Virus record (IMG/VR): IMGVR_UViG_3300037246_000359
Location: 1 to 42,582 of that record
DNA: 42,582 nt
Reading direction: 5' to 3' (one strand)
Source of the DNA: a virus
The notes under the pieces are model-generated. The model saw only the letters and a list, made by a program, of their open reading frames with translations, did no database searches and was not told the origin of the DNA. The position numbers were made by a program, and so were the translations under genes. Of the stretch, positions 1-38,784 are shown piece by piece. Numbering within the stretch: the first letter of the stretch is position 1; each line of letters starts with the position of its first letter.

Positions 1-1
1 C

Positions 2-61
2 AATGGCTGCGAGAACTGCATGGGTACGACTTTTACCCCGTGCCCGATGAGTGAGCTATGA
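2..61 (+). CDS. Cys-rich zinc-knuckle mini-protein, copy 1 (C-terminal end only)
   Basis: Only the last 19 codons are inside the window; the start lies to the left. The visible residues read CENCMGTTFTPCPMSEL at the end, a CxxCxGT(x4)CP motif like half of a DnaJ-type zinc finger. The same ending recurs in the next three genes (CEHCLGTNVEPCPMGEL in the next one), so this is the first visible member of a tandem family. Its stop codon overlaps the next start in an ATGA junction, which suggests translational coupling. Zinc binding is inferred from Cys spacing; the function is unknown. Confidence 0.6.
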   Translation, partial: NGCENCMGTTFTPCPMSEL

Positions 62-246
62 GCAGCAACCCGCTCTGGACTACTCTTGACTTCCCTCGCT
101 CGATCAGGCGCAGGGTGTTCTGTACTCGCTGTACAACCACAGGGAAGAATTACTCTATGAAGATAAACACAAAGAAGTCTATAAGTCAGAACTGTGAGCA
201 CTGCCTGGGCACCAACGTAGAGCCTTGTCCCATGGGTGAACTATGA
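58..246 (+). CDS. Cys-rich zinc-knuckle mini-protein, copy 2
   Basis: This is a 62-residue protein of unknown function. It has an N-proximal CTRC pair near residue 22, a basic Lys/Ser-rich linker, and a C-terminal CEHCLGTNVEPCP block ending in GEL. The two Cys pairs could form one zinc site, like a minimal DnaJ-type finger. The C-terminal block matches copy 1 almost residue for residue. It starts in an ATGA overlap with copy 1 and ends in an ATGA overlap with copy 3. No strong Shine-Dalgarno sequence precedes the start, so coupled re-initiation is likely. A role as adaptor or host-takeover protein is possible but unsupported. Confidence 0.6.
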   Translation: MSSNPLWTTLDFPRSIRRRVFCTRCTTTGKNYSMKINTKKSISQNCEHCLGTNVEPCPMGEL

Positions 247-443
247 AGACCTTTACTGGACACACTCATAATCCCCGGATGATGGAGAAGACATACGCAA
301 TCGGAAGCTCAACCCAAATGCACTACAACACCCACCAAATACCGAGGGATGCGATCTGCAAGAAATGTCGAGGGTGGCATCAGATGTGCGCCCGTTGCCA
401 TGATACGAGGCTGACTGAATGCCCGTACAGGGAGTTCAAATGA
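243..443 (+). CDS. Cys-rich mini-protein, copy 3, with a detached GHTH metallophosphoesterase end
   Basis: This 66-residue protein has two parts. Residues 4-24 contain TGHTH, then YAIGSST eight residues further on. The same arrangement with the same spacing (TGHTH, P, YAVGTST) forms the C-terminal metal-binding segment of the large metallophosphoesterase encoded at 13313-14848. Residues 39-63 (CKKC, then CARCHDTRLTECP) match the family signature of copies 1, 2 and 4. The protein therefore looks like a fusion of a phosphoesterase end fragment to the mini-protein family. Alone, the fragment lacks the DxH, HDxxD and NHHD motifs and cannot be a complete enzyme. The gene sits between two ATGA junctions. 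Confidence 0.62.
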   Translation: MKTFTGHTHNPRMMEKTYAIGSSTQMHYNTHQIPRDAICKKCRGWHQMCARCHDTRLTECPYREFK

Positions 444-577
444 TAGGCACAGACTGGTCAGTGATATGCGCCGACTGTAATGGCTCTGGCCTCCAGCTAG
501 GCCCTGTCGCCGACACGGAGTGTCACAACTGCCACCGCACCGGCTTGACCCCTTGTCCTCCTGTGGAGATCCAATGA
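440..577 (+). CDS. Cys-rich zinc-knuckle mini-protein, copy 4
   Basis: This 45-residue protein starts at the ATG overlapping the stop of copy 3 and ends in an ATGA overlap with the primase start. It carries CADCNGSG near residue 10 and CHNCHRTGLTPCP near residue 28, ending EIQ. CxxCxGxG followed by a second CxxC is the classic DnaJ-type zinc-finger half-site, and this is the copy that resembles it most. The spacing and ending match the other members of the array. The function is unknown. The overlap with the primase gene suggests the array is co-translated with replication genes. Confidence 0.6.
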   Translation: MIGTDWSVICADCNGSGLQLGPVADTECHNCHRTGLTPCPPVEIQ

Positions 578-2475: not shown

Positions 2476-2682
2476 ATGCCTAACTACGACTACGAATGCA
2501 CTGAGTGTGGCCGGGAGATTGAGATCTCTCACCCCATCACGGAAGCCGAGCGCGAGCACGAGAAGCACATCAAGAAGGGTGGCAACGGTGAGCCTTGCGA
2601 GGGTAAGCTGAAGCGCAACATCAGTAAGGGTGGCACGTTCGCCCTCAGTGGCTCTGGCTGGACTCCCAAGAACTATGCCTGA
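2476..2682 (+). CDS. FmdB-like zinc-ribbon protein
   Basis: This 68-residue protein begins MPNYDYECTECGREIEI, the typical start of FmdB-type zinc ribbons (MPxYxYxCxxCG). A second Cys near residue 41 (EPCEGKLKR) replaces the usual CxxC second half, so the zinc site may be incomplete or completed by a His (His20, or one of the two near residue 30). The rest is charged and ends with a Gly/Ser-rich tail. Such proteins occur in bacteria and phages with no settled function. The stop codon overlaps the start of the DNA polymerase gene by 8 nt, suggesting coupled translation. Confidence 0.6.
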   Translation: MPNYDYECTECGREIEISHPITEAEREHEKHIKKGGNGEPCEGKLKRNISKGGTFALSGSGWTPKNYA

Positions 2683-5401
2683 TTCCCCTCTCATTCCCGT
2701 CGTGGACATGAGCACGCTGAGTTGTCGTGAAGGCAACTTCAAGTGCCCCTTGGGCGCTATGGGCTGCTCCTCACCTCAGATAAGCGGGCTGCCCGCTTCT
2801 GTTGTGGCGGAGAGCCACGAGGATGAGCGGAAGTCCGACCGACAAGTGCCCGCGCTTGGCCCCGGTCAGTACGACCTGATGATCATTGGCGACCAGCCGG
2901 GCCTTGACGACGACAAGATGGATGCTGTTTGGATCGACACCGCAGGCCATACCGTTATCGACTTCCTGAACCGAGCCAAGATCGACCTTGAGCGGGTGTG
3001 GCTGACCAAGATCACTAAGTGCCGCCCTGCTGTACGTGGCCGTAAGCCCACCGTGGGTGAGATCGGGAAGTGCCGGGACGAGCATCTTCGCAAGGAGATC
3101 GAGCTTATCATGCCCCAGGTGGTCATGGTGGTAGGTGCCCCTGCCCTGCGTGCGTTCAACCTGTTGGGGCATGGCTCCCTCAACGCCATCCACGGACGTG
3201 TGTTCGAAGCCCAGTTCGCCGACTGGGACGATGGCCCTGAGTTCAAGGTCATCCCCTCTGTCTCTCCCGGTACCTTCTACTACCGGCCTGACCCCAAGTT
3301 CCGTAACCGCGTGGGCAACGACTATGTTGTCGCCCGGGACCTGATCGCGGGTAAGGAGCCCTCCCCCCACTTCTATCCTGACCACCACGTCATCGACACG
3401 GCTGAGAAGCTGGAGTGGCTCAAGGGAGAGATACTCAGTTCAACTCTACTGGGCTGGGATACTGAGTCCTGTGGGCTGGGCTTCCGCAAGTCCCCTGTCA
3501 TCTCCTACCAGTTTGCTTGGGGTTGGAACCCGGACCAGTGTGCCGTCCTCCCCATCATGGAGCATGACCCCGATGCCCCTGAGGAGCAGCAGTTCCACCT
3601 CAAGGAGTCCTTTGGCTCCCTGAACGATGATCTGGTGACTCAGTTCATGCGGGACGTGTTCCTCACCCCCCATATCTCCAAGGCCGCGCACAACCACAAG
3701 TACGACGTTAACATCCTGCGGTGGGGCTACGGTATCGAGATTGAAGGGTTCCTCTACGATACGTGGACGATGAAGCACCAGCAGGATGAGAACCCGCCGT
3801 CTGATCTGGAGTTCCTCTGTGACCTTGAGTTTGCTTGGGGTGACTATGGGGCCGAGAAGCGTAAGATCACTGGCTCTGGTAAGAAGCTCAAGAACACCTA
3901 CGACAAGGTGCCGAACGACATCCTCTACCCCTATGGCGCTACAGATGCTCTGGGAACCTACAGGCTGGCGTGCCTCCACGTCCAACGACTCAAGGCCAAG
4001 CCTAACCTCTGGAAGTTCCACATCGAGGAGTCTGAGCCCCTTCAGCGCAGCCTCGCACGGGCTGAGTTCCGGGGTGCTTGCGTGCATTCTAAGGCGCTTG
4101 AGATCCTTGGCGACCAGTTCGAAGCTGAGCAGAAGAAGCTGCTAACCCACCTTCGCGGTACCATCTCCAAGCCCGACTTCAACCCCGGCTCCAACCCTCA
4201 GGTGCTTGAGGCGTTCCTCGCTATGGGCGTCTCCTCACTTGATCTGGAGGAGCGCAAGGCCGCGTCAGGTTACACGACCAACAAGCAGAAGCTCCTTGAC
4301 ATAGTTGAATCAGGTAAACAGCCCCAGGCCAAGTTCGCACAGGATCTAATGACCTACCGCAACAAGACTAAGATGGTCAGCACCTACATTGAGAACTGCC
4401 GCAACGACCTCGATAAAGACGGGCGGGTTCGGTACTCATGGGTGATCGCTGGTCCCGTAACTGGGCGTCTGTCTTGCAGGTTCTTCCATCAGATCCCCAA
4501 GATTGATGAGCGCATCGTCATGTACGGACCTAAGGACAAGGACGGCAAGGCCGCCTACGTTCCCTTCGCCCAGCGACTTAAGGATGAGAAGTTGGTCATG
4601 CGAGATATGTTCCTCGCGCCTGAAGGATCCAAGTACGTCTATGGTGACTACTCGCAGGTTGAACTGCGGATCCTTGCCATCCTAGCTAACGACATCGAGA
4701 TGCTCAAGATCATGGCTGATCCGAATGGAGACCTCCATGCGGTAACCGCATTCGAGTTCCTCAAGACTGTCTACCCGGACCTCACCGAAGCTCTGGTCAG
4801 TAAGTTCAATCGTACTGAAGTGGGCAAGCGAGTCAACTTCGGTCTGGCTTACGGGTCGGAAGGACACGCACTGGTCAAAACAGGTAAGTGGCAGGATGCC
4901 GCTGGAAACGAGCGTGCCTTCACTTGGGCCATGCTGGAGTCGGGCATGGCCGCGTGGAAGGGCCGCTTTACTGGCGTAGGTGACTTTATCGACACCACCC
5001 CGGATCTGGTGCGTAACTGCGGTGGCACGGCAACGAACGTGTTCGGCCGTGAGCGTCACTTCGGTACCGTGCTGACCTCGGCTAACGACTACGAGCGTGC
5101 GGCTGCTGAGCGCGAAGCAGTCAACTTCTTCATTCAGTCTGTGGCTGCGTCCATCACCAACCGGACGATCATTGCCATCGACAAGATGCTGGCTGACAAC
5201 GGTATTGGTGAGGACACCGTGTGCCTCGTCAACACCGTCCATGACTCCGTGGCCTACGAGGTTAAGGATACTCACGTTGACTGGTTCCTGAAGGCTATGG
5301 CTATTGTGTCCGAGGCCCCGTTCCAAGAGCTGGGCGGGGCTACCTTTAAGATCGACTGTGGCGTCGGCCAGAACTGGACCGATGCGGAGATGGCAGCATG
5401 A
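2675..5401 (+). CDS. Family A DNA polymerase with N-terminal uracil-DNA-glycosylase-like domain
   Basis: This 908-residue replicative polymerase has three parts. Residues 55-225 resemble type 4 (Fe-S) uracil-DNA glycosylases: IIGDQPGLDDD at 70-80, KCRP with Cys116, Cys133 17 residues later, and Cys17, Cys24 and Cys31 as candidate further ligands. The third motif, normally HP, reads SVSPGTFYYRP at about 195-205, so the active-site His is replaced by Ser. Residues 255-430 are a proofreading exonuclease: Asp262/Glu264 (WDTES), HNHKYD with Asp344, and YGATD with Asp424. The polymerase domain has motif A DYSQVELR (658-665), motif B RTEVGKRVNFGLAYG (about 713-726) and motif C HDS (856-858). The start at 2675 overlaps the previous gene; the ATG at 2708 is the alternative. 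UDG-polymerase fusions are known in some phages (SPO1-type); glycosylase activity here is uncertain. Confidence 0.92.
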   Translation: MPDSPLIPVVDMSTLSCREGNFKCPLGAMGCSSPQISGLPASVVAESHEDERKSDRQVPALGPGQYDLMIIGDQPGLDDDKMDAVWIDTAGHTVIDFLNRAKIDLERVWLTKITKCRPAVRGRKPTVGEIGKCRDEHLRKEIELIMPQVVMVVGAPALRAFNLLGHGSLNAIHGRVFEAQFADWDDGPEFKVIPSVSPGTFYYRPDPKFRNRVGNDYVVARDLIAGKEPSPHFYPDHHVIDTAEKLEWLKGEILSSTLLGWDTESCGLGFRKSPVISYQFAWGWNPDQCAVLPIMEHDPDAPEEQQFHLKESFGSLNDDLVTQFMRDVFLTPHISKAAHNHKYDVNILRWGYGIEIEGFLYDTWTMKHQQDENPPSDLEFLCDLEFAWGDYGAEKRKITGSGKKLKNTYDKVPNDILYPYGATDALGTYRLACLHVQRLKAKPNLWKFHIEESEPLQRSLARAEFRGACVHSKALEILGDQFEAEQKKLLTHLRGTISKPDFNPGSNPQVLEAFLAMGVSSLDLEERKAASGYTTNKQKLLDIVESGKQPQAKFAQDLMTYRNKTKMVSTYIENCRNDLDKDGRVRYSWVIAGPVTGRLSCRFFHQIPKIDERIVMYGPKDKDGKAAYVPFAQRLKDEKLVMRDMFLAPEGSKYVYGDYSQVELRILAILANDIEMLKIMADPNGDLHAVTAFEFLKTVYPDLTEALVSKFNRTEVGKRVNFGLAYGSEGHALVKTGKWQDAAGNERAFTWAMLESGMAAWKGRFTGVGDFIDTTPDLVRNCGGTATNVFGRERHFGTVLTSANDYERAAAEREAVNFFIQSVAASITNRTIIAIDKMLADNGIGEDTVCLVNTVHDSVAYEVKDTHVDWFLKAMAIVSEAPFQELGGATFKIDCGVGQNWTDAEMAA

Positions 5402-7610: not shown

Positions 7611-8699
7611 ATGGACGAGAAATTCAAGAAACTGTTTGATCTAACTAAGAAGAACGACGCGCTGACCGTATTTGCGGGCGACGATCTTTCTATGGGCTCT
7701 GTGGCCCCCTACGGAATCAGTACCGGAATCGCAGAATTGGACCTGTATCTCGGTGCCAAGGCTGGACTACCTGCCTCTAAGGTCATCGAGTTCTTCGGAA
7801 AGCAAATGTGTGGCAAGACGACCGCCGCCCTCCAAGCTGCTGCTGAATGGCAGAAGCGTGGTGGACTGGTGATCTTCATTGACACTGAAAAGTCCTTTGA
7901 TCCGAAACGAGCCCGTGAACTGGGCTGTGTCCCGGAGGACATCTTCAAGCACGAGGCGGATACCATCGAAGAGATCTTCAAGGTCATGATCCACTACTTC
8001 GGTGACATCGACGTGGAGACTAAGAAGAAGTCCAAGAAGGGCACCCTGGACGGGGCAGACTTCCCCGTATTAGTCATCGTGGACTCCGTTACTGGTGTCC
8101 CCACCATCGCTGACGCGCAGGGTGACATCGACGCCTCAGACCGCCCTGGGTTCGAGGCCAAGCAGATCAAGCGTGGGCTCAAGAAGGTCAACCCCATCTT
8201 GTCCCAGCTAACCTGTAAGCCTACGATCATCTTTATCAATCACGCTATCGCCAAGATCGGAGCCTTCGGCAAGAAGACCGACTCCGGCGGTGGCATGGGC
8301 ATCAAGTTCTACTCCACGGTTCGTGTGGAATTCACCGCTATCTCGGCGATTAAGAACAAGACCACTGGTGAGCGCCTCGGCCAGAAGATCAAGGTGTTCA
8401 TCGAGAAGCTCAAGGGTGGGCATCTTACGGCTCCGGATATGACCCTGGACCTGACGAATGACCTTGGCTTCGACCGATACGAGAGCCTAAAGCTGGCGAT
8501 GATCTCCACTGGGTTCGCTGCGCGTCCCGCTGGAGCACAGGTGGTAACCATCCTCCCGGGCACCCCGCACGAGCTACAGTTCAAACAAACTGACTTCCGC
8601 AAGTGGGTGGAGGAAACGAGTTACGATGAGGTCTATAACAAATGGCGTAAGTGGTGCGTCAAAGAGGGCTATCTTCAGCCCTGGGGAGGTGACTCATGA
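7611..8699 (+). CDS. UvsX/RecA-like recombinase
   Basis: This 362-residue ATPase forms filaments on ssDNA and drives strand exchange. Walker A is GKQMCGKT at 63-70, with a preceding STGIAELD segment typical of RecA cores. IFIDTEKSFD follows at about 88-97 with the catalytic-glutamate region. Walker B is VLVIVDSV with Asp158. A later FINHAIAK strand and a GGG segment (SGGGMGIKFYS) match the RecA motif and L2 loop area. The ATG at 7611 with GGAG at 7601-7604 is chosen; a longer frame reading into the terminator and the upstream gene is rejected. Neighbours (ssDNA-binding protein, SbcD/SbcC) are the expected recombination partners. Confidence 0.88.
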   Translation: MDEKFKKLFDLTKKNDALTVFAGDDLSMGSVAPYGISTGIAELDLYLGAKAGLPASKVIEFFGKQMCGKTTAALQAAAEWQKRGGLVIFIDTEKSFDPKRARELGCVPEDIFKHEADTIEEIFKVMIHYFGDIDVETKKKSKKGTLDGADFPVLVIVDSVTGVPTIADAQGDIDASDRPGFEAKQIKRGLKKVNPILSQLTCKPTIIFINHAIAKIGAFGKKTDSGGGMGIKFYSTVRVEFTAISAIKNKTTGERLGQKIKVFIEKLKGGHLTAPDMTLDLTNDLGFDRYESLKLAMISTGFAARPAGAQVVTILPGTPHELQFKQTDFRKWVEETSYDEVYNKWRKWCVKEGYLQPWGGDS

Positions 8700-9016
8700 G
8701 CGAAGAAATGCAGTTCGGATTGATGCTATACGCCATCGTTGGCATGATTTGGGTGCGGCTGGAGCACAATACCTTCCAGTTTGATTTTACTGGCATGGAC
8801 ACTGTGAATTCAATGTTCACGGTGATGCAGCAGATCATCCACTACTTCCGCGTTATGGCTGTCTGGCCTCTCTACGTCGCAGAGGATCTCCTGATCTACC
8901 TCGACAACCGTCGTTTCCGTGAGGATGAAGAGGCCGAGGTTGACCCCTTCGAAGAGAAGGAAGACAAGGGACCTACGTTCAAGGGTACCGGCGAGGACAA
9001 GGAAGACGATGAGTAA
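8696..9016 (+). CDS. Small membrane-associated protein of unknown function
   Basis: This 106-residue protein was not recognised. Residues 6-20 are hydrophobic (GLMLYAIVGMIWV) and could be a short membrane helix; a second mildly hydrophobic stretch lies at 50-65. The last 35 residues are highly acidic (EDEEAEVDPFEEKED and EDKEDDE). It starts in an ATGA overlap with the recombinase gene and overlaps sbcD by 8 nt. Acidic tails in recombination clusters can contact ssDNA-binding proteins or mimic DNA, but here this is speculation. Confidence 0.5.
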   Translation: MSEEMQFGLMLYAIVGMIWVRLEHNTFQFDFTGMDTVNSMFTVMQQIIHYFRVMAVWPLYVAEDLLIYLDNRRFREDEEAEVDPFEEKEDKGPTFKGTGEDKEDDE

Positions 9017-12968: not shown

Positions 12969-13329
12969 GGGTAAGGGCAGGAAGTTCCAGAACCATATCC
13001 GTGATCGGATTCTTGAAGAGTTTGATCTGGGTGAGGGTGACGTGGACTCCTGCTCTATGGGCTCAGGAGGAGTAGACATCCCCATGAGCCCCAAGGCCCG
13101 AGCTGCCTTCCCGGTGAGCATTGAGGCCAAGAAGACCCGCAAGACGCCCAGCCTAGCTGAGCTTAGGCAGGCGCACGCTAACGCTTATGACGATACGATC
13201 GCGGCTGTCGTCTGGAGCCCGCATGGCTCTGGCCCTGACAAGGCCGTGATCATGATGGACTTTAACGAGTTCATCGCATGGTACAAAACCCTGGGGACGA
13301 CTGAGGATAACGATGACTCTTCTGTGTGA
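12943..13329 (+). CDS. PD-(D/E)XK endonuclease, Holliday-junction-resolvase-like
   Basis: This 128-residue protein has the short core of the PD-(D/E)XK nuclease fold. After a basic N-terminus and a helix with Glu25/Glu26, the motif reads GGVDIPMSP with Asp45, then FPVSIEAKK with Glu61 and Lys63, followed by a LAELRQAHANA helix. This D...ExK arrangement is used by phage resolvases and related structure-specific nucleases. In this operon it would resolve branched recombination intermediates before packaging. It overlaps the next gene by 17 nt. The substrate is inferred from context; the fold assignment is fairly firm. Confidence 0.65.
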   Translation: MTIKTSSAKGKGRKFQNHIRDRILEEFDLGEGDVDSCSMGSGGVDIPMSPKARAAFPVSIEAKKTRKTPSLAELRQAHANAYDDTIAAVVWSPHGSGPDKAVIMMDFNEFIAWYKTLGTTEDNDDSSV

Positions 13330-14848
13330 ATTCTGTAGATCAAGCGACGTTGAGAAGCGCGGCACCCGTGAGAAGGACGGTGAGATCTATCACCGTGTCA
13401 AGTGCCGTAGCTGTAGCAAGTGGTCGCGAGGTAAGATAGAGTACGAAGAGACGAAGGAGTTCAAGCGCACTGAGGAAGAGCTGGCTAAGCTGCTGGAGGC
13501 CGATACCTACATCATCATGTGCGCCCAAAACAACACGGGCGTGGACAAGATTTTCTGGGCCGGGCTCAAGCAGTACGCGAAGTACAAGAAGGCGCAGATC
13601 ATGGTTCTGCCCATCGTGTTCCCTCGTCGTGTTAATGTGCCCGATGACTTCTGGTGGGCACCCGAGATTGAGCCGTACCTGATGAATCAGGACATCACTC
13701 TGGTCGAGGGCCTCCGTGTCGTAGGAGACTCCTTTCTGAGCCTCACGGCGGTCAACCCCCTCACAGGGTTCGACTCCCTCACACAGAGCGATAGCGCCAT
13801 CCTGGGGCACCCGCAGATTCAGATGAAGACGGTAGCCACCCCGCAGAACCGGCTCCCGAAGATCCTTCATACGACTGGGGCCGTGACCCAGAAGAACTAC
13901 AAGCCCTCCGGTGCTGGTAAGAAGGGCGACTTTCATCATAGCCTCGGAGCGGTGATAGTTGAAATAGATAAAGAGGAGGGGGTGTTCCATCTCCGTAGCC
14001 TCGTGGGCGACTCCAAGAGCGAGTTCTATGACGTAGACAAGCACATCACCAGCCGTGGCGTCAAGCAGTCCAAGGGCTGTGAGGCCATCGTCCTGGGTGA
14101 TGAGCACGTCATAACGAACTGCGAGGACGTGTATAACGCGACCTTCGTAGGGAACGACTCCATCGTGCAGACCTGTCGCCCCAAGTACATCGTGCGGCAT
14201 GACGTGATCGACTCCTACTCGATCAGCCACCATCACCGGCAAACCCCGTCTATCCGGCTGGGTAAGCACATGGCCGGTACGGACAAGCTGAGGGAGGAGC
14301 TGGAGGATACAGCGCGGTTCGTTGAGGGCTCTACGCCCGACTTCTCTCAGAGCGTAATCGTGCCCTCCAACCACCACGACCATATCAAGAAGTGGCTGGA
14401 AGAGGTGGATTGGAAGATGGAGCTGTGGAACGCCCGGATCTATCACGAGATGTGGGCTGCGTGGATTGCCGCCATCGAGCTGAACCGTGGGTTCCATCCG
14501 TTCACATGGTGGATGAAGCAGAACTGTAAGGCCAATGTCATCTACCTTGAGGACGATTACCCCTTCATCGTGAAGGACATCTACCTGGGGTACCACGGTG
14601 ACCGTGGATCTAATGGCTCGAAAGGTAGCATCAAGGCATTCGCCAAGATGGGCTGCAAGACAGTCACGGGTCACACTCACACCCCTGGTATCGAGAAGGG
14701 GGCCTACGCCGTAGGTACCAGCACCCGATTGAAGCTGGAGTACACCTCCGGGCCGAGTAGCTGGATGAACACACACTGTCTGATCCATCCCAATGGCAAG
14801 CGCCAGTTGATCAACATTCTCTGGGGTGATTGGAGATACGATGCGTAA
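13313..14848 (+). CDS. Zinc-ribbon metallophosphoesterase, possibly T5 A1-like
   Basis: This 511-residue protein combines an N-terminal zinc ribbon (CEFC at 5-8, CRSC near 31-34) with a large calcineurin-like metallophosphoesterase domain. The metal-site motifs are VLGDEHV (DxH), VRHDVIDSYS (HDxxD), SNHHDH (in place of GNHD), HGDRG, and TVTGHTHTP (GHTH). The long region between residues 60 and 255 is unlike SbcD. The architecture recalls phage proteins such as T5 A1, which acts on DNA and host DNA breakdown, but I identified this by motif order only. The end of this protein is duplicated in the mini-protein at 243-443. The 17-nt overlap with the nuclease gene places both in one operon. Confidence 0.68.
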   Translation: MTLLCEFCRSSDVEKRGTREKDGEIYHRVKCRSCSKWSRGKIEYEETKEFKRTEEELAKLLEADTYIIMCAQNNTGVDKIFWAGLKQYAKYKKAQIMVLPIVFPRRVNVPDDFWWAPEIEPYLMNQDITLVEGLRVVGDSFLSLTAVNPLTGFDSLTQSDSAILGHPQIQMKTVATPQNRLPKILHTTGAVTQKNYKPSGAGKKGDFHHSLGAVIVEIDKEEGVFHLRSLVGDSKSEFYDVDKHITSRGVKQSKGCEAIVLGDEHVITNCEDVYNATFVGNDSIVQTCRPKYIVRHDVIDSYSISHHHRQTPSIRLGKHMAGTDKLREELEDTARFVEGSTPDFSQSVIVPSNHHDHIKKWLEEVDWKMELWNARIYHEMWAAWIAAIELNRGFHPFTWWMKQNCKANVIYLEDDYPFIVKDIYLGYHGDRGSNGSKGSIKAFAKMGCKTVTGHTHTPGIEKGAYAVGTSTRLKLEYTSGPSSWMNTHCLIHPNGKRQLINILWGDWRYDA

Positions 14849-15047
14849 GATAGACTTTGAAGTGTGGATGTCCGACCAGTGCAAGAGCGAGGTCCACTTC
14901 TTTATGCTCAACGATCAATCAACGTATGTCATGGGGGCTAACCCTGAGTTCGTGAAGCTTGAGGACGTGGTGCGTATTCTAGCTAATTTGGGCTATGAGT
15001 TCCCGACAGGGGCTACTAAGGCGTGGATAAAGGAGTTTACGAAATGA
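14841..15047 (+). CDS. Small protein of unknown function
   Basis: This 68-residue protein was not recognised. It looks like a compact alpha/beta domain: a strand (KIDFEVWMS), a strand (EVHFFML), then two helices (KLEDVVRILANLG and TKAWIKEF). The ATG at 14841 is chosen because GGAG is at 14832-14835; an in-frame ATG at 14826 is too close to that site to use it. It overlaps the phosphoesterase gene by 8 nt and the next gene by 4 nt (ATGA). Confidence 0.5.
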   Translation: MRKIDFEVWMSDQCKSEVHFFMLNDQSTYVMGANPEFVKLEDVVRILANLGYEFPTGATKAWIKEFTK

Positions 15048-26762: not shown

Positions 26763-26886
26763 CCTGTCTAAACTGACTAAGCTCATGGATCGGCTGCTGA
26801 GCATCATGGATCGCCAGACGGCAGCCCTAGAGCGTCTCGCAGACGTTGGTGAGGCCCTGGTGGAAGAGAAAGACGACGGGATATGA
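26755..26886 (+). CDS. Very small helical protein (43 aa)
   Basis: This 43-residue frame follows GAAGGAGAAG, overlaps the end of the HNH gene by 8 nt, and ends in an ATGA overlap with the next mini-protein. It is one continuous amphipathic helix with a leucine heptad-like pattern (LTKLMDRLLSIMDRQ, then LERLADVGEALVEEK), so a short coiled coil is likely. The coupling on both sides supports a real gene. The function is unknown. Confidence 0.45.
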   Translation: MFDLSKLTKLMDRLLSIMDRQTAALERLADVGEALVEEKDDGI

Positions 26887-27038
26887 ACGGCCCGGACTGT
26901 GACTACTGTCTGCCTGATATGTTCTACATCACAGACGACGAGGTTTACAACACCAGTAACTGCCCGCATTGCGCCGGCACTGGCATGGAACCTACCCCTT
27001 TTGAGGAGATTAAGAATGGAATTGTCAACCTTACCTGA
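26883..27038 (+). CDS. Cys-rich zinc-knuckle mini-protein, distant fifth copy
   Basis: This 51-residue protein has CDYC near residue 6 and CPHCAGTGMEPTPFEE near 27. The second block aligns with the ending of the four mini-proteins at 1-577 (CxxCxGTxxxPCPxxE), except that the final Cys is Thr. It therefore looks like a dispersed member of that family, 26 kb away. It starts in an ATGA overlap and shares 23 nt with the start of the deformylase gene, so its last residues and the deformylase ribosome-binding site overlap. Confidence 0.55.
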   Translation: MNGPDCDYCLPDMFYITDDEVYNTSNCPHCAGTGMEPTPFEEIKNGIVNLT

Positions 27039-27681
27039 GTCTAAGAGACCCGAACTCCGTCTGGTAATCTGGCCTGACAAGTCCCTTAAGGATGCGGTTG
27101 CGCCGTTCCCGGAGGGGGACATCAGCTCCCGTCTCGTGCGGGATACCGCCGGGGCCATGATCCGGTCGATGTACAAGCACTACGGTGTGGGCCTTGCCGC
27201 CCAACAGGTCGGCATCCCGTTCCAGATGTTTGTCATGGACAGCCAGTGGACTCAGACTAACCGGAAGAAGCCTAGGGTGTTCATCAACCCCAGGGTCGTC
27301 AACATCGGAGAGGGGGCTCAGCAGCTCCCTACGCCCGGTGAGGGCTGTCTTTCCTTCCCGTACGACTACCGGCACCCGGTGTCCCGTTTGGACAAGCTAG
27401 AGCTGGAATGGCTGGATACGAACGGTAACGTGCATCACCAGTGGTTCGAAGGCTATGAGGCTATCATCATTCAGCACGAGTTCGACCACCTCATGGGCTT
27501 CTGTTTCTACGACCGGCTTTCCCGCCTCAAGAGGGACATGGCGTTCCGCAAGGCCCGCAAGATCCGGCGGAAGTACGGCAAGGGCTACAAGCGTGGCCTC
27601 AACCAGATGAAGCACTCCGGCCAGACGCCCGAGTTCGCCCGCAAGGCGCTGGCTACGATTGAGCAGGGGGACTCCAAATGA
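27016..27681 (+). CDS. def: Peptide deformylase
   Basis: This 221-residue metalloenzyme removes formyl groups from nascent N-termini. All three motifs are intact: GVGLAA at 57-62 (family GxGLAAxQ), EGCLS at 109-113 with Cys111 as metal ligand, and HEFDH at 154-158. A basic tail of about 45 residues (RKARKIRRKYGKG) is longer than in bacterial enzymes and could contact ribosomes. The start at 27016 is backed by GAGGAG at 27003-27008. Phages, especially marine ones, sometimes carry this enzyme, presumably to keep up with rapid protein synthesis. The stop overlaps the next start. Confidence 0.9.
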   Translation: MELSTLPESKRPELRLVIWPDKSLKDAVAPFPEGDISSRLVRDTAGAMIRSMYKHYGVGLAAQQVGIPFQMFVMDSQWTQTNRKKPRVFINPRVVNIGEGAQQLPTPGEGCLSFPYDYRHPVSRLDKLELEWLDTNGNVHHQWFEGYEAIIIQHEFDHLMGFCFYDRLSRLKRDMAFRKARKIRRKYGKGYKRGLNQMKHSGQTPEFARKALATIEQGDSK

Positions 27682-29313: not shown

Positions 29314-29594
29314 GGGTAGAGGTTCTCTAGCATCCGGAGGTCTTCTTTGAGCATCCGAACTAGGAAACCGTTCCTGCCCTTGTGCCTACCAGTCTTGCTT
29401 TCGTGCATCTTAATCTGTCGCCGGATGCTGATTATGGCCTTGTACATCTTACCGCAATCTAACTCTCTGAATTCCCATGCTCTGTCATACTGATGTCCGC
29501 GTTTGTGATGTACTATCTCAGCTTCGCTGTGCTTAGCGAACCCGAATAGCGTCATAGCTAGAATCAGGGACACTACAGCGATGAGAATTCTCAC
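29292..29594 (-). CDS. Small exported protein at the end of the virion operon
   Basis: This 100-residue protein has a signal peptide (MRILIAVVSLILAMTLFGF, cleavage probable after SEA near residue 25). The mature part is basic and His-rich, with a helical, charged second half (about 45-100) and two Cys that could pair. It starts at a GTG overlapping the stop of the 1344-residue virion protein gene (GTGA). Position at the end of a late operon would suit a lysis accessory or spanin-like factor, but no such motif is visible. Confidence 0.5.
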   Translation of the reverse strand: MRILIAVVSLILAMTLFGFAKHSEAEIVHHKRGHQYDRAWEFRELDCGKMYKAIISIRRQIKMHESKTGRHKGRNGFLVRMLKEDLRMLENLYPYICEEV

Positions 29595-32500
29595 GGCTGC
29601 TCAACAACCGTTAGCCCACCCGCTTTACGAAGCTGACGCTGCTCCAGTTCTGTTCGCAACTCTGCGAGCGTCTGACGGTTGATCTTGCTCTTCTCGGCAT
29701 TACCCGCACGGAGAGCTTGCATCTGACCCATGATACGGTCCTCACTGAGCCCTTGGTAGATCTTGAGACCTTCCATGGATTTCGAAGTGCGCTGTGCCCA
29801 CTTCATGTACTCGCTCATAGCGACTTCCGTGTTGGCGTGCTCAAGGCCGTATAGCTTGTAGATCTCACCGATGGCCGACTTAGCGCGGGACTCGCTGCCC
29901 TGAGCAATAGCGTCACGTAGGCCCTTGACCGGCACCTTACGCATTTCAGCAAACCGCTTGGACCGCAGGCTCTCGTTGTAGATGTTTTGCTCGGCGGAGG
30001 ACTTCCAAGACTTGTTCAAGCCGAACCAACTGTTCGCCATGAAGTCCAGAGTCATGTCGCCCTTCTGACCGGTACGAGTATCGGCCAGGATACCGAGGTC
30101 AGTCATGAGGCGGGTAGTGTTGATTTCAGCTCCTGCCATGGCTCCCATAGTACCCGATAGTGCAGTTGCAGCGCCTACACTGCCTTTTGCACTGAGGAGC
30201 GCCTGACCGGCTTTACCGGCCATGTGCCCCTTGGAACCCATGAACGTAAGTCCAGCCAGCGCCAGACCACCGAAGGTAGACGTGACGTACTTGGGGAGAG
30301 TCATCTGCCCGCCGTTCTTTGTGAACGCATCAGCCATGGGGACGAAAGCATTGCCATTGGGAAGCTTCATGCCGTACTTCTGCATAATCGGAGGCGCAAG
30401 GTGGCCTAGGAGTCCCAGAGCCATCTTGTTGGCGAAGGCGATTCCGCTCTTGGCCTCGATCTCCGTGCCGAACGAACCACGACCCGAGTAGAGGTCGAGG
30501 ATGGGCTGGAACACTGCGAAGGGCTCGACGGGAGTCAGATCCTTAGCTGTCTGGAGCCACTCCTTGCCCGGTGTCGGAGAACCGCCAGTCATGCCGGTCG
30601 GGAGCAGCTTCTCCCACTCATGCGGGTGAAGGCTGGCAGGGAAGAGGGCCGACTGCGGGAGGAAGTCCATCACCCACGCTCTGTTGAATTCACGTACTTC
30701 GTCAACCGGAGACTGGCCGAACTTGTTACCCATGAGCGCACCCGCGGCAGCACCAGCGGCACCGCCAATGGCTGCGCCCTTGGCTCCACCGATAGCGGCG
30801 CCTGCCATAGCGCCCATACCACCAGCACCGGCAGCGCCCAGAAACTCGGGGGCGTCGTTACCATTGAGCATGACGGTCTGGTATCTAACGGCCCACGCGG
30901 GCGCCGCGTTAATCGCGTCAGTGTAATCACTGAAGTCCGGACCCATACCCATACCACTAACCGCAGCCTGAGCAATCTGGGGAGCCTGCATCCACGCCAT
31001 CATCGGCACGGGGCGGTCCATCATGTTGTTCTTCATGATACGGGCAGCCTCGGCCGGGAAAGTAACCCACGGGAGGACGACCTTACGGGCGCTCTGCTGC
31101 AACGTACCGACCGTCCGGTACTGAGGGAGCCGACGGCCCACCTCACGCACGATGGCGTCGATACCGTAACCCTTACGGGCGAGGTGCGAGACGTACATCA
31201 TCTTCGGGATGGCGTCCTCTGCAAGATACATGTGGGACATCGTGCTCATGGTCTGCTTGATGCCACGCACGTTGCCTACGCCTGCGATAGAACGCGCTAC
31301 AGTGGCGAGAGCCTTATCACCCCAGTGGTCACTGTTAAGCTTATCGAGCTGCTCCAGCATGTAGTTGACGTTCTTCATGCCTTCCTGAGTCTCGAATGAC
31401 TGAGCCTCGATCATGTCCATGATAGCGGGGTTGGAGAAGATCTCAGAAAGATCGACTTTCTCTCCCAAGTGGTCCGTGATGTAGCGGTCTTTGCCAAGTG
31501 CCTTCGCAAGCTTCGCAGGATCACCCATGATGCTTTCAATAGACTCGCCACCCTCTTTACCAGTCGTCTTGATAATGCGCTTGAGCGCTCCACTCATGAC
31601 CTTACCGTCGTTGAGTGCCACTCGGCTGAATGGGTTCATGCCTGCCATGGCGAGGAACATCATGTTTCCCATGATATTGGACATGTGAGTCGGGACATTC
31701 AGAGAGGTACGGGCGGTCTTATGGACTGCGGTGAGTAGTTCGAAGAACTTACCGAAGGTACCGGCAGCTTCCTTGGCAGAGCCATCCTGACCGAAGAACT
31801 GCTGGAGCACTTCACGGTCGATGACCGCCATGTCCTTGAACTTCTTGGGGTCCATGCCCTTAAGGTCAGCTTCCTTGCGGACCATTCGCTCCATCCTGGC
31901 TGAGAGGCCGGGGACAACACTGTCCAATTCGTCAAAGGCGATCCAGTGCTTCTTGGCAGCATCGGGTAGCTCGTCATAGCGAGCGCGAGGCTTAACCATC
32001 TGGCTCCATTTGCTAGCCGGGTTATCGGTAGCGTCCACGATGATGTCACGGAAGTTACGGTGGAGCTGGAACAGGACGTTGTCCTTGATGAAGCCTCCGA
32101 CAGTCATCTTGTCGGGAGCGACTTCCAGCGAGTCGATCGCATCAATAACTGCTTCCTTTGTGTCGAGCTTTCCACGGTGCATAGTGGTGGGGCCAGACAT
32201 CGCCGCCGCGTCATCCACATACGGATTGCCGCCGAGCTTGCCCGCCGGGTTGGACTTAAGACCGGAAGCCGTACCGCCCAAATTTTCAAAGCCGGGAGTG
32301 CCGACCTTGACAGCGGGAACGTGGAAGCCGGAGCCTACCTTATCCGCATCACGGAACATGGCTGCTGTGGCGTCATCCACGAACCCTTCCGCAACCTGCT
32401 CGTCAAATAGCTGGGTCCACTTATCGGCGATCTCGCTCGCCCAGTCAGCGTTGTCGGCACCGATCTTCTTCCCTAGCGCGTCCTTGTTACGGCCAGGGCC

Positions 32501-33625
32501 ATCTAGCCAGAACTTGTAGATGGCCTTGTTGCTATCGTGGCTAAGTCGGGTGGGAGCCTGGGCCAAGAACCGCCCGAGCTGTGCCTTGGTGAAGAAATCA
32601 TCCATGCTCTCGATGTTAGCCTTGCTTACATCGTTGAGCTTCTCGAAATACTTGTTCCCGAACTGATTCCACATCACCCAAGACGCTTTCTGCTGAATAC
32701 CCTCTAGCTCTCCGTTCTTGGCGAGCTGTCGCAGCTCAGCGTAACGCTCCTGATGGAAGTCGCCGATGAGCATCTTGTTAAGCTCTCGGGGCGGAACGAT
32801 CTTGGCGATCTCGTCCGGACCAATGCCGGGCTGAGCGAGCCTATCAATAGTAGACTTGCTGAAGAGTCCGCGGCCACCGTTCACATCGGGGCGGGCGAGC
32901 TGCTGCACCATTGCGGCGTGATCATCGAACTTGAAGCCTAGCTTGACAGTGGTACCGAGGACTCCGGTACCCTTGGCGATTTCGGGACCAGCTCCGGCCA
33001 TGGTGGCGAGCTTGGCACCGCGCGCTGCGACACGAGCGCCCTTCTGCCATGCGAGGCCGATAGGAACCATGTAGCTGGCGAGAGTGAAAGCGGAGGAGTA
33101 GGGATGCTCAGCGAACTGCTGCTTGGCGTTCCCCAGTGCCCACGCGAAACCTTCTTGGTCCCACTTCATGCCCAGCATACCCATCTCGTCCGAGAACAGG
33201 AAGTTCACCGTGGAACGGAAAGCATTGCCAGGGTCACCGGAATCGGTATCCGAAGTGGAGAGGATGTCCTTATCAGGCTGGATCATGCCGGCTTCCGGAT
33301 CGTTGCGCAGGTAATCCTGTCGCCTCATCTCGGCCAAGTTACCCTTGGAGCCTTCGAAATCGAAGTTATCGTTGGGATTGATGGTACCGAGACCGGTAGT
33401 GCTCATGTAGTTGATGTCGCGGAGAATCTCGCGCTCTCGTGTCCCCTTCTGATGATGTATGAGCATCGTGTCAACAGTATGCTGGAAGAGGGCCTTCTCT
33501 TGGTCGGCGTCGATGCCCTTGGGCTTCTTCGGCTTGATACTGGAAGTGCCTAGCGGCGAGAGGGTGGGAGGGTGCCTCTCCTGAACCGGACCACGAGGGT
33601 TTAGCAGGGGGGTTTCGTTAGCCAT
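29591..33625 (-). CDS. Internal virion / DNA-ejection protein, large (1344 aa, T7 gp16-like position)
   Basis: This 1344-residue protein matches T7 gp16 (1318 aa) in size and in order after 355- and 738-residue proteins. It is helical, with a long glycine-zipper at about residues 925-965 (repeated GxxxG/AxxxA: GAAIGGAKGAAIGGAAG), suitable for membrane insertion or a trans-envelope channel. The T7 gp16 lytic transglycosylase motif was not found at the N-terminus. Probably it leaves the virion with the DNA to span the cell envelope. The start at 33625 follows GGTGAG. The next gene on this strand starts inside its stop codon. Confidence 0.65.
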   Translation of the reverse strand: MANETPLLNPRGPVQERHPPTLSPLGTSSIKPKKPKGIDADQEKALFQHTVDTMLIHHQKGTREREILRDINYMSTTGLGTINPNDNFDFEGSKGNLAEMRRQDYLRNDPEAGMIQPDKDILSTSDTDSGDPGNAFRSTVNFLFSDEMGMLGMKWDQEGFAWALGNAKQQFAEHPYSSAFTLASYMVPIGLAWQKGARVAARGAKLATMAGAGPEIAKGTGVLGTTVKLGFKFDDHAAMVQQLARPDVNGGRGLFSKSTIDRLAQPGIGPDEIAKIVPPRELNKMLIGDFHQERYAELRQLAKNGELEGIQQKASWVMWNQFGNKYFEKLNDVSKANIESMDDFFTKAQLGRFLAQAPTRLSHDSNKAIYKFWLDGPGRNKDALGKKIGADNADWASEIADKWTQLFDEQVAEGFVDDATAAMFRDADKVGSGFHVPAVKVGTPGFENLGGTASGLKSNPAGKLGGNPYVDDAAAMSGPTTMHRGKLDTKEAVIDAIDSLEVAPDKMTVGGFIKDNVLFQLHRNFRDIIVDATDNPASKWSQMVKPRARYDELPDAAKKHWIAFDELDSVVPGLSARMERMVRKEADLKGMDPKKFKDMAVIDREVLQQFFGQDGSAKEAAGTFGKFFELLTAVHKTARTSLNVPTHMSNIMGNMMFLAMAGMNPFSRVALNDGKVMSGALKRIIKTTGKEGGESIESIMGDPAKLAKALGKDRYITDHLGEKVDLSEIFSNPAIMDMIEAQSFETQEGMKNVNYMLEQLDKLNSDHWGDKALATVARSIAGVGNVRGIKQTMSTMSHMYLAEDAIPKMMYVSHLARKGYGIDAIVREVGRRLPQYRTVGTLQQSARKVVLPWVTFPAEAARIMKNNMMDRPVPMMAWMQAPQIAQAAVSGMGMGPDFSDYTDAINAAPAWAVRYQTVMLNGNDAPEFLGAAGAGGMGAMAGAAIGGAKGAAIGGAAGAAAGALMGNKFGQSPVDEVREFNRAWVMDFLPQSALFPASLHPHEWEKLLPTGMTGGSPTPGKEWLQTAKDLTPVEPFAVFQPILDLYSGRGSFGTEIEAKSGIAFANKMALGLLGHLAPPIMQKYGMKLPNGNAFVPMADAFTKNGGQMTLPKYVTSTFGGLALAGLTFMGSKGHMAGKAGQALLSAKGSVGAATALSGTMGAMAGAEINTTRLMTDLGILADTRTGQKGDMTLDFMANSWFGLNKSWKSSAEQNIYNESLRSKRFAEMRKVPVKGLRDAIAQGSESRAKSAIGEIYKLYGLEHANTEVAMSEYMKWAQRTSKSMEGLKIYQGLSEDRIMGQMQALRAGNAEKSKINRQTLAELRTELEQRQLRKAGGLTVVEQP

Positions 33626-33627
33626 GT

Positions 33628-35844
33628 CTACTCACCTTCGAGAGCGGTAATAGCGTCAGCGATAAGCTTGTGAGCCTGAGATTCGGGCGGTAGTGAAATG
33701 GCGAGAGACTTAAGCACAGACGGATCCATGTTGATGTAGGGGTTACTGTATTCGAGAGGCTGACCGTTAACATCGAGAGGGCGACCCTCCATGTCATAGG
33801 CGAAGCCATTTTCCTGTACAACGCCGGGCTCGCGCTGACCACGCTCGTAACCGAACAGGCTACGACCGGCCGTAGCGACTCCGGAGACGATGCCTGAGAG
33901 AAGGTCAGCAGCCGCTTCACCGGGACGCTTCGCACCAGCGCCGTACACGCGCTCCCACTCACTAGCGGAGCCAGAGGTGGAGGTCTCCAGTCCAGTGGGG
34001 AGAGCCGGAGCCGTCTGGGCTTCCGAGGGCTGGTCCGACAACAAGTTCATGTTGTAGGGCAGATTTCTAGGCTCAGCGCGGAGAGGTCCGGTCGGAGCTT
34101 CGGGCGGAGCTTCGGGTTCAGCGAGGCCGAGGCCCGGGGTTGGCCGCGCCATGCCGTCAACGTCTATATCAGCGGGGTCGCCGCCACCTCGCCAGTGCTT
34201 CACGCGAGCGCTTTCTACGGGGGGCGGGGGCGGGGGATTACGCCTCTGGAAGAGTTCCGTCGCGCGCTGCTCAGTGTGGGGATCCATGTTGAGCGGATCA
34301 CCCCATTGGTCGCGACCCTGGTCCCGGCCGAGCGTAGCTTCAACGAACGGAACGTAGCGCTGTGCGCGGATACGCTCTTCGTCAACGTCCAAGCCATTCG
34401 CCCGTGCCTCGGCGATGAAGCGGTCAAGCGTAGCATCAATCGTCGTAGCCACGTTCGGATCCTGAGCCTCCAGAGAGGGGAGGCGGCGAATATACGCCGT
34501 GTCGTTAGCCTTCTGGGATGCACCGGAAGACTCAGTAATCGACTTGAGGATGATCTGGAGGTTAGCATCCTTCCACAACTGGTTCTCAGCCTTCAGAACA
34601 TCAGTCTCGCCTCCGCCGTGGGCGCGAATCAGGGCTTCCCGGTCTGCCGGTTCCATGGCGTTGATTTCGCCGGCTTTGCTATTCGCCAAATCAGCAAACG
34701 CATTACCGAAGAAGGTCTGGTAGACAGGATCCCGCGTCATCATGTGACCCTGCCAGTTCTGAGGGATTTCAGCGAGAGCCGGCGGAATCGTGTAATAGTC
34801 CTGCTTGGCACGAGCGAGAATTTGCTTCTCCTGAAGCCCTCGTTCATGTCTTGCGGCAGCCGCCGCTTGAAACTGCTCGTTCTTGGTGAGAGGCTTACCA
34901 GTTTGGTACTTGCCGATGATCTTCGATCCAAGAGAATCGTCAAACCTCTTACTTGTTCCGATGAGACCACCAGCTTCGCGAGCACCGATTTCACGCTCGG
35001 CGGCACCCGTGTCCGCTTGGACCTTGCCCTCCGCAATCTGCTGACCCTTGATTTCCTGGTCGGCTTCGAACTCCTGACGATCCATCATATGCCTTTCAGC
35101 ATCATGAGGGTCGGTCTGACCGGTAGTAGCAATGTTCCCCTGCTTGATAACCTCTGCTATGAGATTCTCAGCCATGCTATCGGCGTAGGGGTTGCCGACG
35201 TACTCTCCGAGCGTATCCATCATAGAGGAAGTAACCCGAGAGTATTCACCCCAAAACATGGAGTCGGCGTTCTGAACTATGGACTTGCCACGAGGCCCAC
35301 CGAGGGCGACGGGGACACCAGACACGGGATCCATGAGCGCCAGCATATCCTCATGTTGGGTGACACCAATGGTTTCGCCCTGCATAGCCAGATTCGGAGC
35401 AGCCTGGGGCGCTCCTGTCGCTACAGTGGAGGCTCCAACCTGACCGTCTTTGCCCTTCTTACCAGGGACAACAGTCTGCGCGCCGGGAATATCCAACCCC
35501 AACTCGCTGCTCATTTGGGCGGATTCGCCGGGCTGCATCGTCCTCGGAACGGGCATGACAGTAGACATTAGCGTCTTCTCACGGGCGTCCTTAGCCGCCT
35601 GGAGTTGGTCTCGTAGCGGAGTGATGCGGGTAGCCTGAATCTGCTCCCACTCCTTCTTGTAATAGCGCTGACGAATCTGGTCTGCGGCGAGGGCACCCTT
35701 CTGACTGGCCGACTGCATGTATGCAGCCTTAACCGTCTCGGAAGCTCCTGCCGACCACATGCGAGCGAAGCCTCGCTCCTCCTGCATAGCACCCTGCATA
35801 GCCATGCTAGTCCATCCAGATACCGCGCCTTCTCTTTTAGCCAT
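33628..35844 (-). CDS. Internal virion / DNA-ejection protein, middle (738 aa, T7 gp15-like position)
   Basis: This 738-residue protein matches T7 gp15 (747 aa) in size and position. It is mostly helical and rich in Ala, Gln, Glu and Arg, with Pro-rich, probably disordered regions in the last quarter (NPPPPPP-type runs near residue 540, and EPEAPPEAP). No enzyme motif was found. The ATG at 35844 is chosen; a GTG at 35859 in the same frame would overlap the previous gene. The antisense frame of 458 residues opposite this gene is a shadow. Assignment is by gene order and composition. Confidence 0.58.
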   Translation of the reverse strand: MAKREGAVSGWTSMAMQGAMQEERGFARMWSAGASETVKAAYMQSASQKGALAADQIRQRYYKKEWEQIQATRITPLRDQLQAAKDAREKTLMSTVMPVPRTMQPGESAQMSSELGLDIPGAQTVVPGKKGKDGQVGASTVATGAPQAAPNLAMQGETIGVTQHEDMLALMDPVSGVPVALGGPRGKSIVQNADSMFWGEYSRVTSSMMDTLGEYVGNPYADSMAENLIAEVIKQGNIATTGQTDPHDAERHMMDRQEFEADQEIKGQQIAEGKVQADTGAAEREIGAREAGGLIGTSKRFDDSLGSKIIGKYQTGKPLTKNEQFQAAAAARHERGLQEKQILARAKQDYYTIPPALAEIPQNWQGHMMTRDPVYQTFFGNAFADLANSKAGEINAMEPADREALIRAHGGGETDVLKAENQLWKDANLQIILKSITESSGASQKANDTAYIRRLPSLEAQDPNVATTIDATLDRFIAEARANGLDVDEERIRAQRYVPFVEATLGRDQGRDQWGDPLNMDPHTEQRATELFQRRNPPPPPPVESARVKHWRGGGDPADIDVDGMARPTPGLGLAEPEAPPEAPTGPLRAEPRNLPYNMNLLSDQPSEAQTAPALPTGLETSTSGSASEWERVYGAGAKRPGEAAADLLSGIVSGVATAGRSLFGYERGQREPGVVQENGFAYDMEGRPLDVNGQPLEYSNPYINMDPSVLKSLAISLPPESQAHKLIADAITALEGE

Positions 35845-35846
35845 GA

Positions 35847-36914
35847 TTACTTGCCCCACTTATCTTCGGCGGCCAGACCAATGATCTTCGTGGCTGAGCC
35901 TGTAATACCTTCGAGTGCGCCACTGATTGCCTGACTTCTCGTATTGTTGGCGTCCTGCATGGCACCACTAGCTTGGAGGATGCCCTGCTGAGTCGCGCTG
36001 GCCGCAGCCGTAGTAGCGCCCGCAAGGGTCGGAGCCATGGTGGAGGCCCAAAAGAGCTGTAGGTTCTGTGTGGCGTTAGTGAAGGCGTCGCGGATACCGG
36101 ACGTGTTGTTGACCCACTTCTGGGCGTATTCCATGGTGTCCTTGGAGTGCGCGATACGGTACTGTTCAAGTCCCATCTTCGCCTGCCATAGCTGGCCGGT
36201 ACGCTGACGGTTGATCTTCTCCTGAACCTGAAACGCCTGAGCCATCTGTAGGCCGATCCGGCGGGTTCCGCCGCCACGGGCCAGTTGGCGGGCGACCTGC
36301 TCCATCGCCTCGCGCTGGAAGCCAGCGTTCGACTCGTAGATACCACCAACGATTGAGTTGTTAAGCTGATCCCAGAGAGGGCCAGTCCGATTCATGAGCT
36401 GCTCGGCCTCGGCCACCATCTGAGAGACCTGTCGGAAACCAGAGGTGCCTTGTACGGCAGCGGTCATCTTGTCGGGATCGAGGACTGTGCCTTGGGTATC
36501 CCAGGTTGAATCGCCGACCTGTCCCGCCTCGAAGACGGCGCCGGAGCTGGTAATAGAGTTACCATAGCTGGACATGCCACCGAGGCCGGTGGGGGTAAGA
36601 CCCTGAAACTGAATGGGGCCAGACTGGGATCCGGGGGAGGGTCCGTAGGAACCGGGCGTCCCGAGGGACGCGAAGACGTTCAGGCGGGCCTGCTCTGAGG
36701 CGCGAAGATTCCGTGAAGCGATGTTCTGATCAGCCTCTACCTGTTCGCTGACGGCTTGGTTGCCCTCCAAGCCTGCCTGGGCGGCAGCGGTTGAAGCCGC
36801 CAGCCCGCTCTTCGCGATCTTCTCCTGCTTGTTGGCAGCAATACTGGAGGACGCTACACTGCCTGCGGCGGCGGCGACTCCAACTCCAGCGGCTACCAAG
36901 GCTCCAATACCCAT
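35847..36914 (-). CDS. Internal virion / DNA-ejection protein, small (355 aa, T7 gp14-like position)
   Basis: This 355-residue protein begins with a hydrophobic, Ala/Gly/Val-rich helix (GALVAAGVGVAAAAGSVASS), typical of small podovirus ejection proteins that insert into the outer membrane. The rest is helical and rich in Gln, Ala and Ser. It precedes two larger virion proteins, as gp14 precedes gp15 and gp16 in T7, although T7 gp14 is shorter (196 aa). It could form the outer-membrane part of the ejection channel. Stop and next start are 2 nt apart. Confidence 0.58.
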   Translation of the reverse strand: MGIGALVAAGVGVAAAAGSVASSSIAANKQEKIAKSGLAASTAAAQAGLEGNQAVSEQVEADQNIASRNLRASEQARLNVFASLGTPGSYGPSPGSQSGPIQFQGLTPTGLGGMSSYGNSITSSGAVFEAGQVGDSTWDTQGTVLDPDKMTAAVQGTSGFRQVSQMVAEAEQLMNRTGPLWDQLNNSIVGGIYESNAGFQREAMEQVARQLARGGGTRRIGLQMAQAFQVQEKINRQRTGQLWQAKMGLEQYRIAHSKDTMEYAQKWVNNTSGIRDAFTNATQNLQLFWASTMAPTLAGATTAAASATQQGILQASGAMQDANNTRSQAISGALEGITGSATKIIGLAAEDKWGK

Positions 36915-38496: not shown

Positions 38497-38784
38497 TTAC
38501 GCTCCCGATGCGCTGAACCATACCGTAACATCAATAGTATCATCGTCACCGGTAATTCTGAGTCCTTTATCAGCGATCCATGAATTGTCCAAAAACACAT
38601 TGGACGTAGTAGCCAGTACATAGATTACACAGTAAGGCTCTGCGGCGGCATTGGTCAATGTGATCGTATGAGAGGCTTGACCACTATGAGCAACGAGAAT
38701 AGCATCAACCCGAATAGTGTCATCAGACACAATAAACGGGCTAGAAGTCATGTTCTGGGTTGAAACTTTAGTTGATACGTGCAT
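38497..38784 (-). CDS. Small beta-rich protein next to the tail gene
   Basis: This 95-residue protein has alternating Val/Thr/Ile residues and few charged helices, suggesting a beta-sandwich (SHTITLTNAAAEPYCVIYVL, then TIDVTVWFSASGA). It starts in a TAATG overlap with the stop of the tail protein gene. Location between tail tube and ejection genes and the beta-rich character suggest a minor virion protein, such as a decoration or tail-associated protein. Unrecognised. Confidence 0.45.
   Translation of the reverse strand: MHVSTKVSTQNMTSSPFIVSDDTIRVDAILVAHSGQASHTITLTNAAAEPYCVIYVLATTSNVFLDNSWIADKGLRITGDDDTIDVTVWFSASGA

Follow-up and report, generated by a model that had tools for sequence, protein, structure and literature searches.

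The left end of a linear virus record in IMG/VR (IMGVR_UViG_3300037246_000359; all 42,582 bases were analysed and are referred to here as the window) carries, on the replication side, four small same-strand open reading frames (ORFs) that lie end to end between positions 2 and 577 and encode related cysteine-rich mini-proteins, W1–W4. A primase-like gene follows directly, and a fifth copy, W5, is located outside the array. The record starts at base 1, and W1 is open at this left edge. The features are listed below, and the profile mentioned in them was built from the copies of a sister phage.

2–61, + strand: W1, remaining 3′ part of the first mini-protein gene, truncated where the contig begins; its C-terminal end reads ...NGCENCMGTTFTPCPMSEL; matched by the sister-copy profile

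58–246, + strand: W2, putative zinc-finger mini-protein of 62 residues; ATGA overlaps at both ends; profile match

243–443, + strand: W3, putative zinc-finger mini-protein of 66 residues; ATGA overlaps at both ends; profile match

440–577, + strand: W4, putative zinc-finger mini-protein of 45 residues, the copy closest to the canonical form; flanked on either side by ATGA overlaps; profile match; matches to Pfam DnaJ and anti-TRAP below cutoff

574–1524, + strand: DNA primase-like gene with a cysteine-rich N terminus, coupled to W4; phrog_47 DNA primase, E = 5.6e-17

26883–27038, + strand: W5, dispersed fifth copy of 51 residues, between a short upstream ORF (ATGA overlap) and a peptide deformylase gene

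Every junction within the array is an ATGA in which the stop and start codons overlap (58–61, 243–246 and 440–443), and W4 is linked to the primase gene in the same way (574–577). The peptide deformylase gene next to W5 (27016–27681; phrog_2890, E = 3e-28) is likely to start inside W5.

Each complete copy contains two CxxC pairs, so the labels ‘zinc knuckle’ and ‘half finger’, under which an earlier sequence-only reading of this DNA had placed the mini-proteins, do not fit. The core that is common to the arrays of the window and of two other phages described below (L003 and L024) is C-x(1,2)-C...C-x2-C-x2-T-x3-P-x-P-x2-E-[FLI], in which four cysteines and one glutamate are invariant, and one threonine nearly so, over 13 copies from the three phages. 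A stricter pattern, C-x2-C-x-G-T-x3-P-x-P-x2-E-[FLIMV], which was written after the copies had been seen, occurs three times in the window compared with 0.00 expected from 100 shuffles. The cysteine conservation first proposed holds for the four cysteines of the two CxxC pairs, but not for the cysteine of the ‘CP’ element (the third cysteine of the proposed signature), whose place is taken by Ile, Phe or Thr elsewhere in the family and which is thus probably not a ligand.

Relatives were sought by polymerase scans of IMG/VR, which led to L002, whose 7.8 kb do not extend far enough upstream, and to L003, which belongs to an 87 kb contig. L003 is a sister phage, with a polymerase up to 71% identical to that of the window and a primase-like protein 64% identical to its counterpart at 574–1524. 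It carries an array of five intact copies (at about 2914–3057, 3044–3199, 3457–3639, 3646–3813 and 3814–3981), the second and third being separated by an extra small ORF, so a loss of intact frames in related phages, which would have spoken against the family, was not observed. When a profile of the L003 copies was run against the six-frame ORFs of the window, W1–W5 took ranks one to five (E from 8e-5 to 0.006), and the next ORF followed at 0.011; this margin is narrow, and homology rests on the joint ranking of the five rather than on single E-values. The reciprocal search with the window copies placed all five L003 copies first (E from 5.8e-7 to 0.022), and the best E-values in reversed-protein controls for the two profiles were 0.049 and 0.31. 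A profile of all ten copies found five in the window, five in L003 and none in L002. The tandem, translationally coupled family of paralogues that had been proposed is thus borne out by the four ORFs, their ATGA junctions and the reciprocal ranking, and the separate fifth copy at 26883–27038 was recovered by the sister-copy profile.

The L003 array stands ahead of a different gene, which is helicase-like rather than a primase and which we take to be a UvsW-like helicase; another L003 protein is presumably DnaB-like (both were read by eye, with no profile match). Neither protein was found in the window by tblastn, so either their counterparts lie beyond the left end of the contig or the phage does not have them. 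Upstream of the L003 array, two ORFs resemble, by eye only, a patatin-type lipase (126–1046) and a polysaccharide deacetylase (2264–2917).

A third array was reached by a degenerate-DNA scan of IMG/VR. In this record (L024), ORFs 3210–3530, 3962–4303, 4266–4595 and 4592–4792 share the same core and have a longer C-terminal tail; the first and second copies are separated by two ORFs (3527–3787 and 3784–3969) that contain cysteines but are degenerate. The window-type polymerase profile matched nothing in the L024 record, and the phage is apparently unrelated to the lineage of the window and L003. In a scan of 24 sequences (300,779 nt), runs of at least three small two-CxxC ORFs were confined to these arrays. 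IMG/VR scans with one protein at a time, the primase or W2, yielded no relatives; tblastn searches of isolated phages with W2, W4, B5 and the primase produced no convincing match; and a final pattern scan of IMG/VR brought up no additional array. The 35 hits of a pattern scan of bacterial genomes were mostly unrelated proteins or implausible frames and included one Q-like prophage protein. No description of such arrays was found in the limited collection of literature that was searched. That the array is a real repeated gene family is well supported.

The coding status of W2–W4 rests on homology, on the overlaps and on substitution patterns, since codon-usage scores separated coding from other frames poorly. 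In the finger half of the copies, the Nei–Gojobori proportion of nonsynonymous differences (pN) is below that of synonymous differences (pS) in 44 of the 45 pairs, the exception being W5/B5 (pN 0.51, pS 0.46); these estimates are rough, as they draw on 17–22 codons with pS often saturated. For W1 and W2 the finger-half values are pS 0.84 and pN 0.20. In the closest pair, B3/B4, the finger half has values of 0.23 (pS) and 0.10 (pN) and the N-terminal half values of 0.67 (pS) and 0.50 (pN), N-terminal halves being generally near saturation and uninformative. The diversifying selection suggested by the sequence-only reading was not borne out, as the finger-half comparison of the 45 pairs contained no sign of diversifying or positive selection.

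This bears on the idea that the copies are anti-defence or host-takeover adaptors, each directed at one host protein and kept by duplication and divergence. Tandem copies with a conserved finger and divergent N termini, a wide spread of isoelectric points (pI) and an array position that differs between the sister phages would all suit such a role. However, there is no dN/dS signal, and the gene to which the array is coupled is a primase gene in the window and helicase-like in L003. There was also no PADLOC match, which says little because that library holds defence rather than counter-defence proteins. An anti-defence role is neither supported nor excluded by these results, and we regard it as a rather unlikely account of the array.

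The C-terminal tail of the copies has a second property. The conserved glutamate is encoded by GAG in nine of the ten copies from the window and L003, and in seven of them its codon lies within GGAG, ∼5–15 bases before the next start. Most junctions are an ATGA or a near overlap, and the two features together could be read as mainly a cis-acting translation relay: short coupled frames with Shine–Dalgarno sequences would adjust how strongly the primase or helicase is expressed, and the encoded peptides would be of little importance. Coupling does not, however, depend on the four cysteines, which all 13 copies from the three phages retain; pS is far above pN in W1/W2; and the L024 copies retain Glu-[Phe/Leu] although ∼22–47 residues follow, so that in L024 this motif does not mark a start site. 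A relay of this kind is thus very improbable. Given its retention in L024, the motif has probably been conserved for its role in the protein and, judging from the three phages, would double as a start-site signal in the compact copies. A more speculative extension, which we consider doubtful, is that the array behaves as a duplicating cassette: the last codons of a copy would supply the ribosome-binding site for the next gene, each duplication would yield a coupled adaptor with a free N terminus, and a similar array would have arisen in, or been acquired by, an apparently unrelated phage.

The copies have the C-x2-C...C-x2-C layout of the DnaJ-type zinc module, and several comparisons point to the same class. 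Foldseek searches of the PDB with AlphaFold models of W4 and one sister copy, both of low confidence, returned almost exclusively DnaJ-type fingers (lambda Q, DnaJ, UvrA, BSD2 and anti-TRAP), none of them significant (all E ≥ 0.06), with lambda Q ranked first for both models. Weak profile matches were obtained to phrog_6060, ‘anti-termination protein Q-like’ (6 of 13 members, best E 6e-4), to Pfam anti-TRAP (PF15777; 4 of 9 members, best E 0.0049, below the curated score) and to NCBIfam RtpA (2 of 13 members, best E 0.0037). With the combined window and sister profile, two Q-like phage or prophage proteins, first picked out with the mini-protein family itself in motif or similarity searches, scored 23.9 and 22.8 bits, above all 250 shuffles of each with cysteines fixed (maxima 13.8 and 14.7). 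A profile designated A6 had its sole match in lambda at Q (E 0.0055), and its only convincing matches in four bacterial genomes were two Q-like Paracidovorax proteins, not DnaJ or UvrA. E. coli DnaJ itself scored 9.2 and −0.8 bits with two family profiles and did not exceed its cysteine-fixed shuffles.

Comparison with the individual systems shows where the likeness ends. Lambda Q, which reads CRDCHGTG...CGRCKGVGYSRMPASAAY, also has two CxxC pairs followed by a tail; however, it is a protein of 207 residues with other functional regions, whereas the mini-proteins consist of a finger with short flanks, and the complete window copies (45–66 residues) have no room for the nozzle and helix-turn-helix regions of Q. 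The DnaJ central domain (PF00684) and the fingers of UvrA and BSD2 belong to the same class of zinc module, as judged by motif and weak fold matches, but the mini-proteins lack the J domain and the further motif repeats of DnaJ. In Rhodobacter phage RcOceanus, gp31 is a single small protein (CPAC...CNACGGTGLIPIPPEEI) with the same finger and tail; unlike the mini-proteins, it occurs in one copy in its genome and has a longer C-terminal extension. Anti-TRAP (RtpA), a zinc-dependent trimer of 53 residues that acts by binding TRAP, is a stand-alone regulator made of a lone DnaJ-like zinc module with two CxxC motifs (PMC2896485). The tandem arrays and the P-x-P-x2-E tail are features of the mini-proteins and set them apart from anti-TRAP, as does their best Pfam match, which is below cutoff. 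Given its length, the lone finger of the copies resembles anti-TRAP in size, and it resembles a fragment of Q in sequence. In another record, L016, a single protein (8377–8991) has a DnaJ-type finger and a P-x-P-x2-E tail followed by other sequence, and scores 30.2 bits with DnaJ_CXXCXGXG, just below the cutoff.

On balance, we favour the reading that the mini-proteins are lineage-specific, tandemly duplicated single-domain zinc-finger adaptors or regulators that are co-translated with replication genes. The copies, embedded in a phage replication gene cluster, are each predicted to hold one zinc ion through the two CxxC pairs in a module of the DnaJ/Q-antiterminator type, and stop–start overlaps with Shine–Dalgarno-like sequences would couple translation of each copy to that of the next gene. 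The products may act as small interaction modules, comparable to anti-TRAP in size and zinc module, with the transcription or replication machinery as their probable target, and the variable N-terminal parts would give each copy its own partner.

Several results weigh against this reading. The AlphaFold models have mean predicted local distance difference test scores of only 72 and 66 and a predicted template modelling score of 0.40; every member stays below the curated cutoffs of Pfam and NCBIfam (W4 scores 16.6 bits with PF00684, for which 32.7 are needed); none of nine scanned copies matches Pfam Antiterm (PF03589) at E < 1, whereas lambda Q scores 193 bits; and the calculated pI of the copies, from 4.1 to 9.4, does not favour one shared nucleic-acid-binding role. 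This range suits varied partners better than a single nucleic-acid target. Moreover, lambda Q scores 13.5 bits with the window and sister profile, within its best cysteine-fixed shuffles (16.7), so the link of the family to true Q is weak. We consider it unlikely that the mini-proteins are stand-alone antitermination or transcription-elongation factors acting on RNA polymerase as Q does: the phrog_6060 matches, the first rank of lambda Q in the fold searches and the annotation of RcOceanus gp31 as an antitermination protein would fit, but the copies are too small to contain the other parts of Q and lack an Antiterm match, and gp31, annotated with no stated basis, has no such match either. We conclude that the mini-proteins probably contain a zinc module of the DnaJ/Q type and form a distinct family in its own right. 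The initial impression that they belong to no recognised family thus holds for the mini-protein family itself, but not for the domain class, which is already known.

Regulators that target the host are plentiful among the small early proteins of phages, and most of these small proteins belong to no family. A recurrent array of paralogues with one shared finger and differing N termini is a ready comparison set for copy-by-copy tests of partners, and a shared tail that frequently serves as a ribosome-binding site as well would be an uncomplicated means of preserving coupling through tandem duplication.

The replication cluster at the left end, as defined by PHROG and Pfam matches, comprises the primase, a nucleoside deoxyribosyltransferase and a uracil-DNA glycosylase (UDG)/DNA polymerase A fusion, and continues with dCMP deaminase, the single-stranded DNA-binding protein SSB, a UvsX-like recombinase and SbcD/SbcC-like proteins, followed by ribonucleotide reductase and thymidylate synthase. 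In the fusion (2630–5401; Pfam UDG and DNA_pol_A), a family A DNA polymerase carries the UDG domain at its N terminus, and proteins of L002 and L003 align with the fusion across almost its full length. Directly 5′ of the polymerase, all three sequences have a short zinc-ribbon ORF (FmdB/Zn_ribbon_8-like, below cutoff; window 2476–2682, L002 1–204, L003 8798–9004). On the − strand of the window, three large ORFs of 1344, 743 and 355 residues (29591–33625, 33628–35859 and 35847–36914), with no PHROG match at E ≤ 0.01, lie near an ORF resembling an internal virion protein (38784–41324). A 523-residue open frame on the − strand (13340–14911), antisense to a phrog_1745 (DNA transfer protein) ORF at 13313–14848, is probably a by-product of codon usage.
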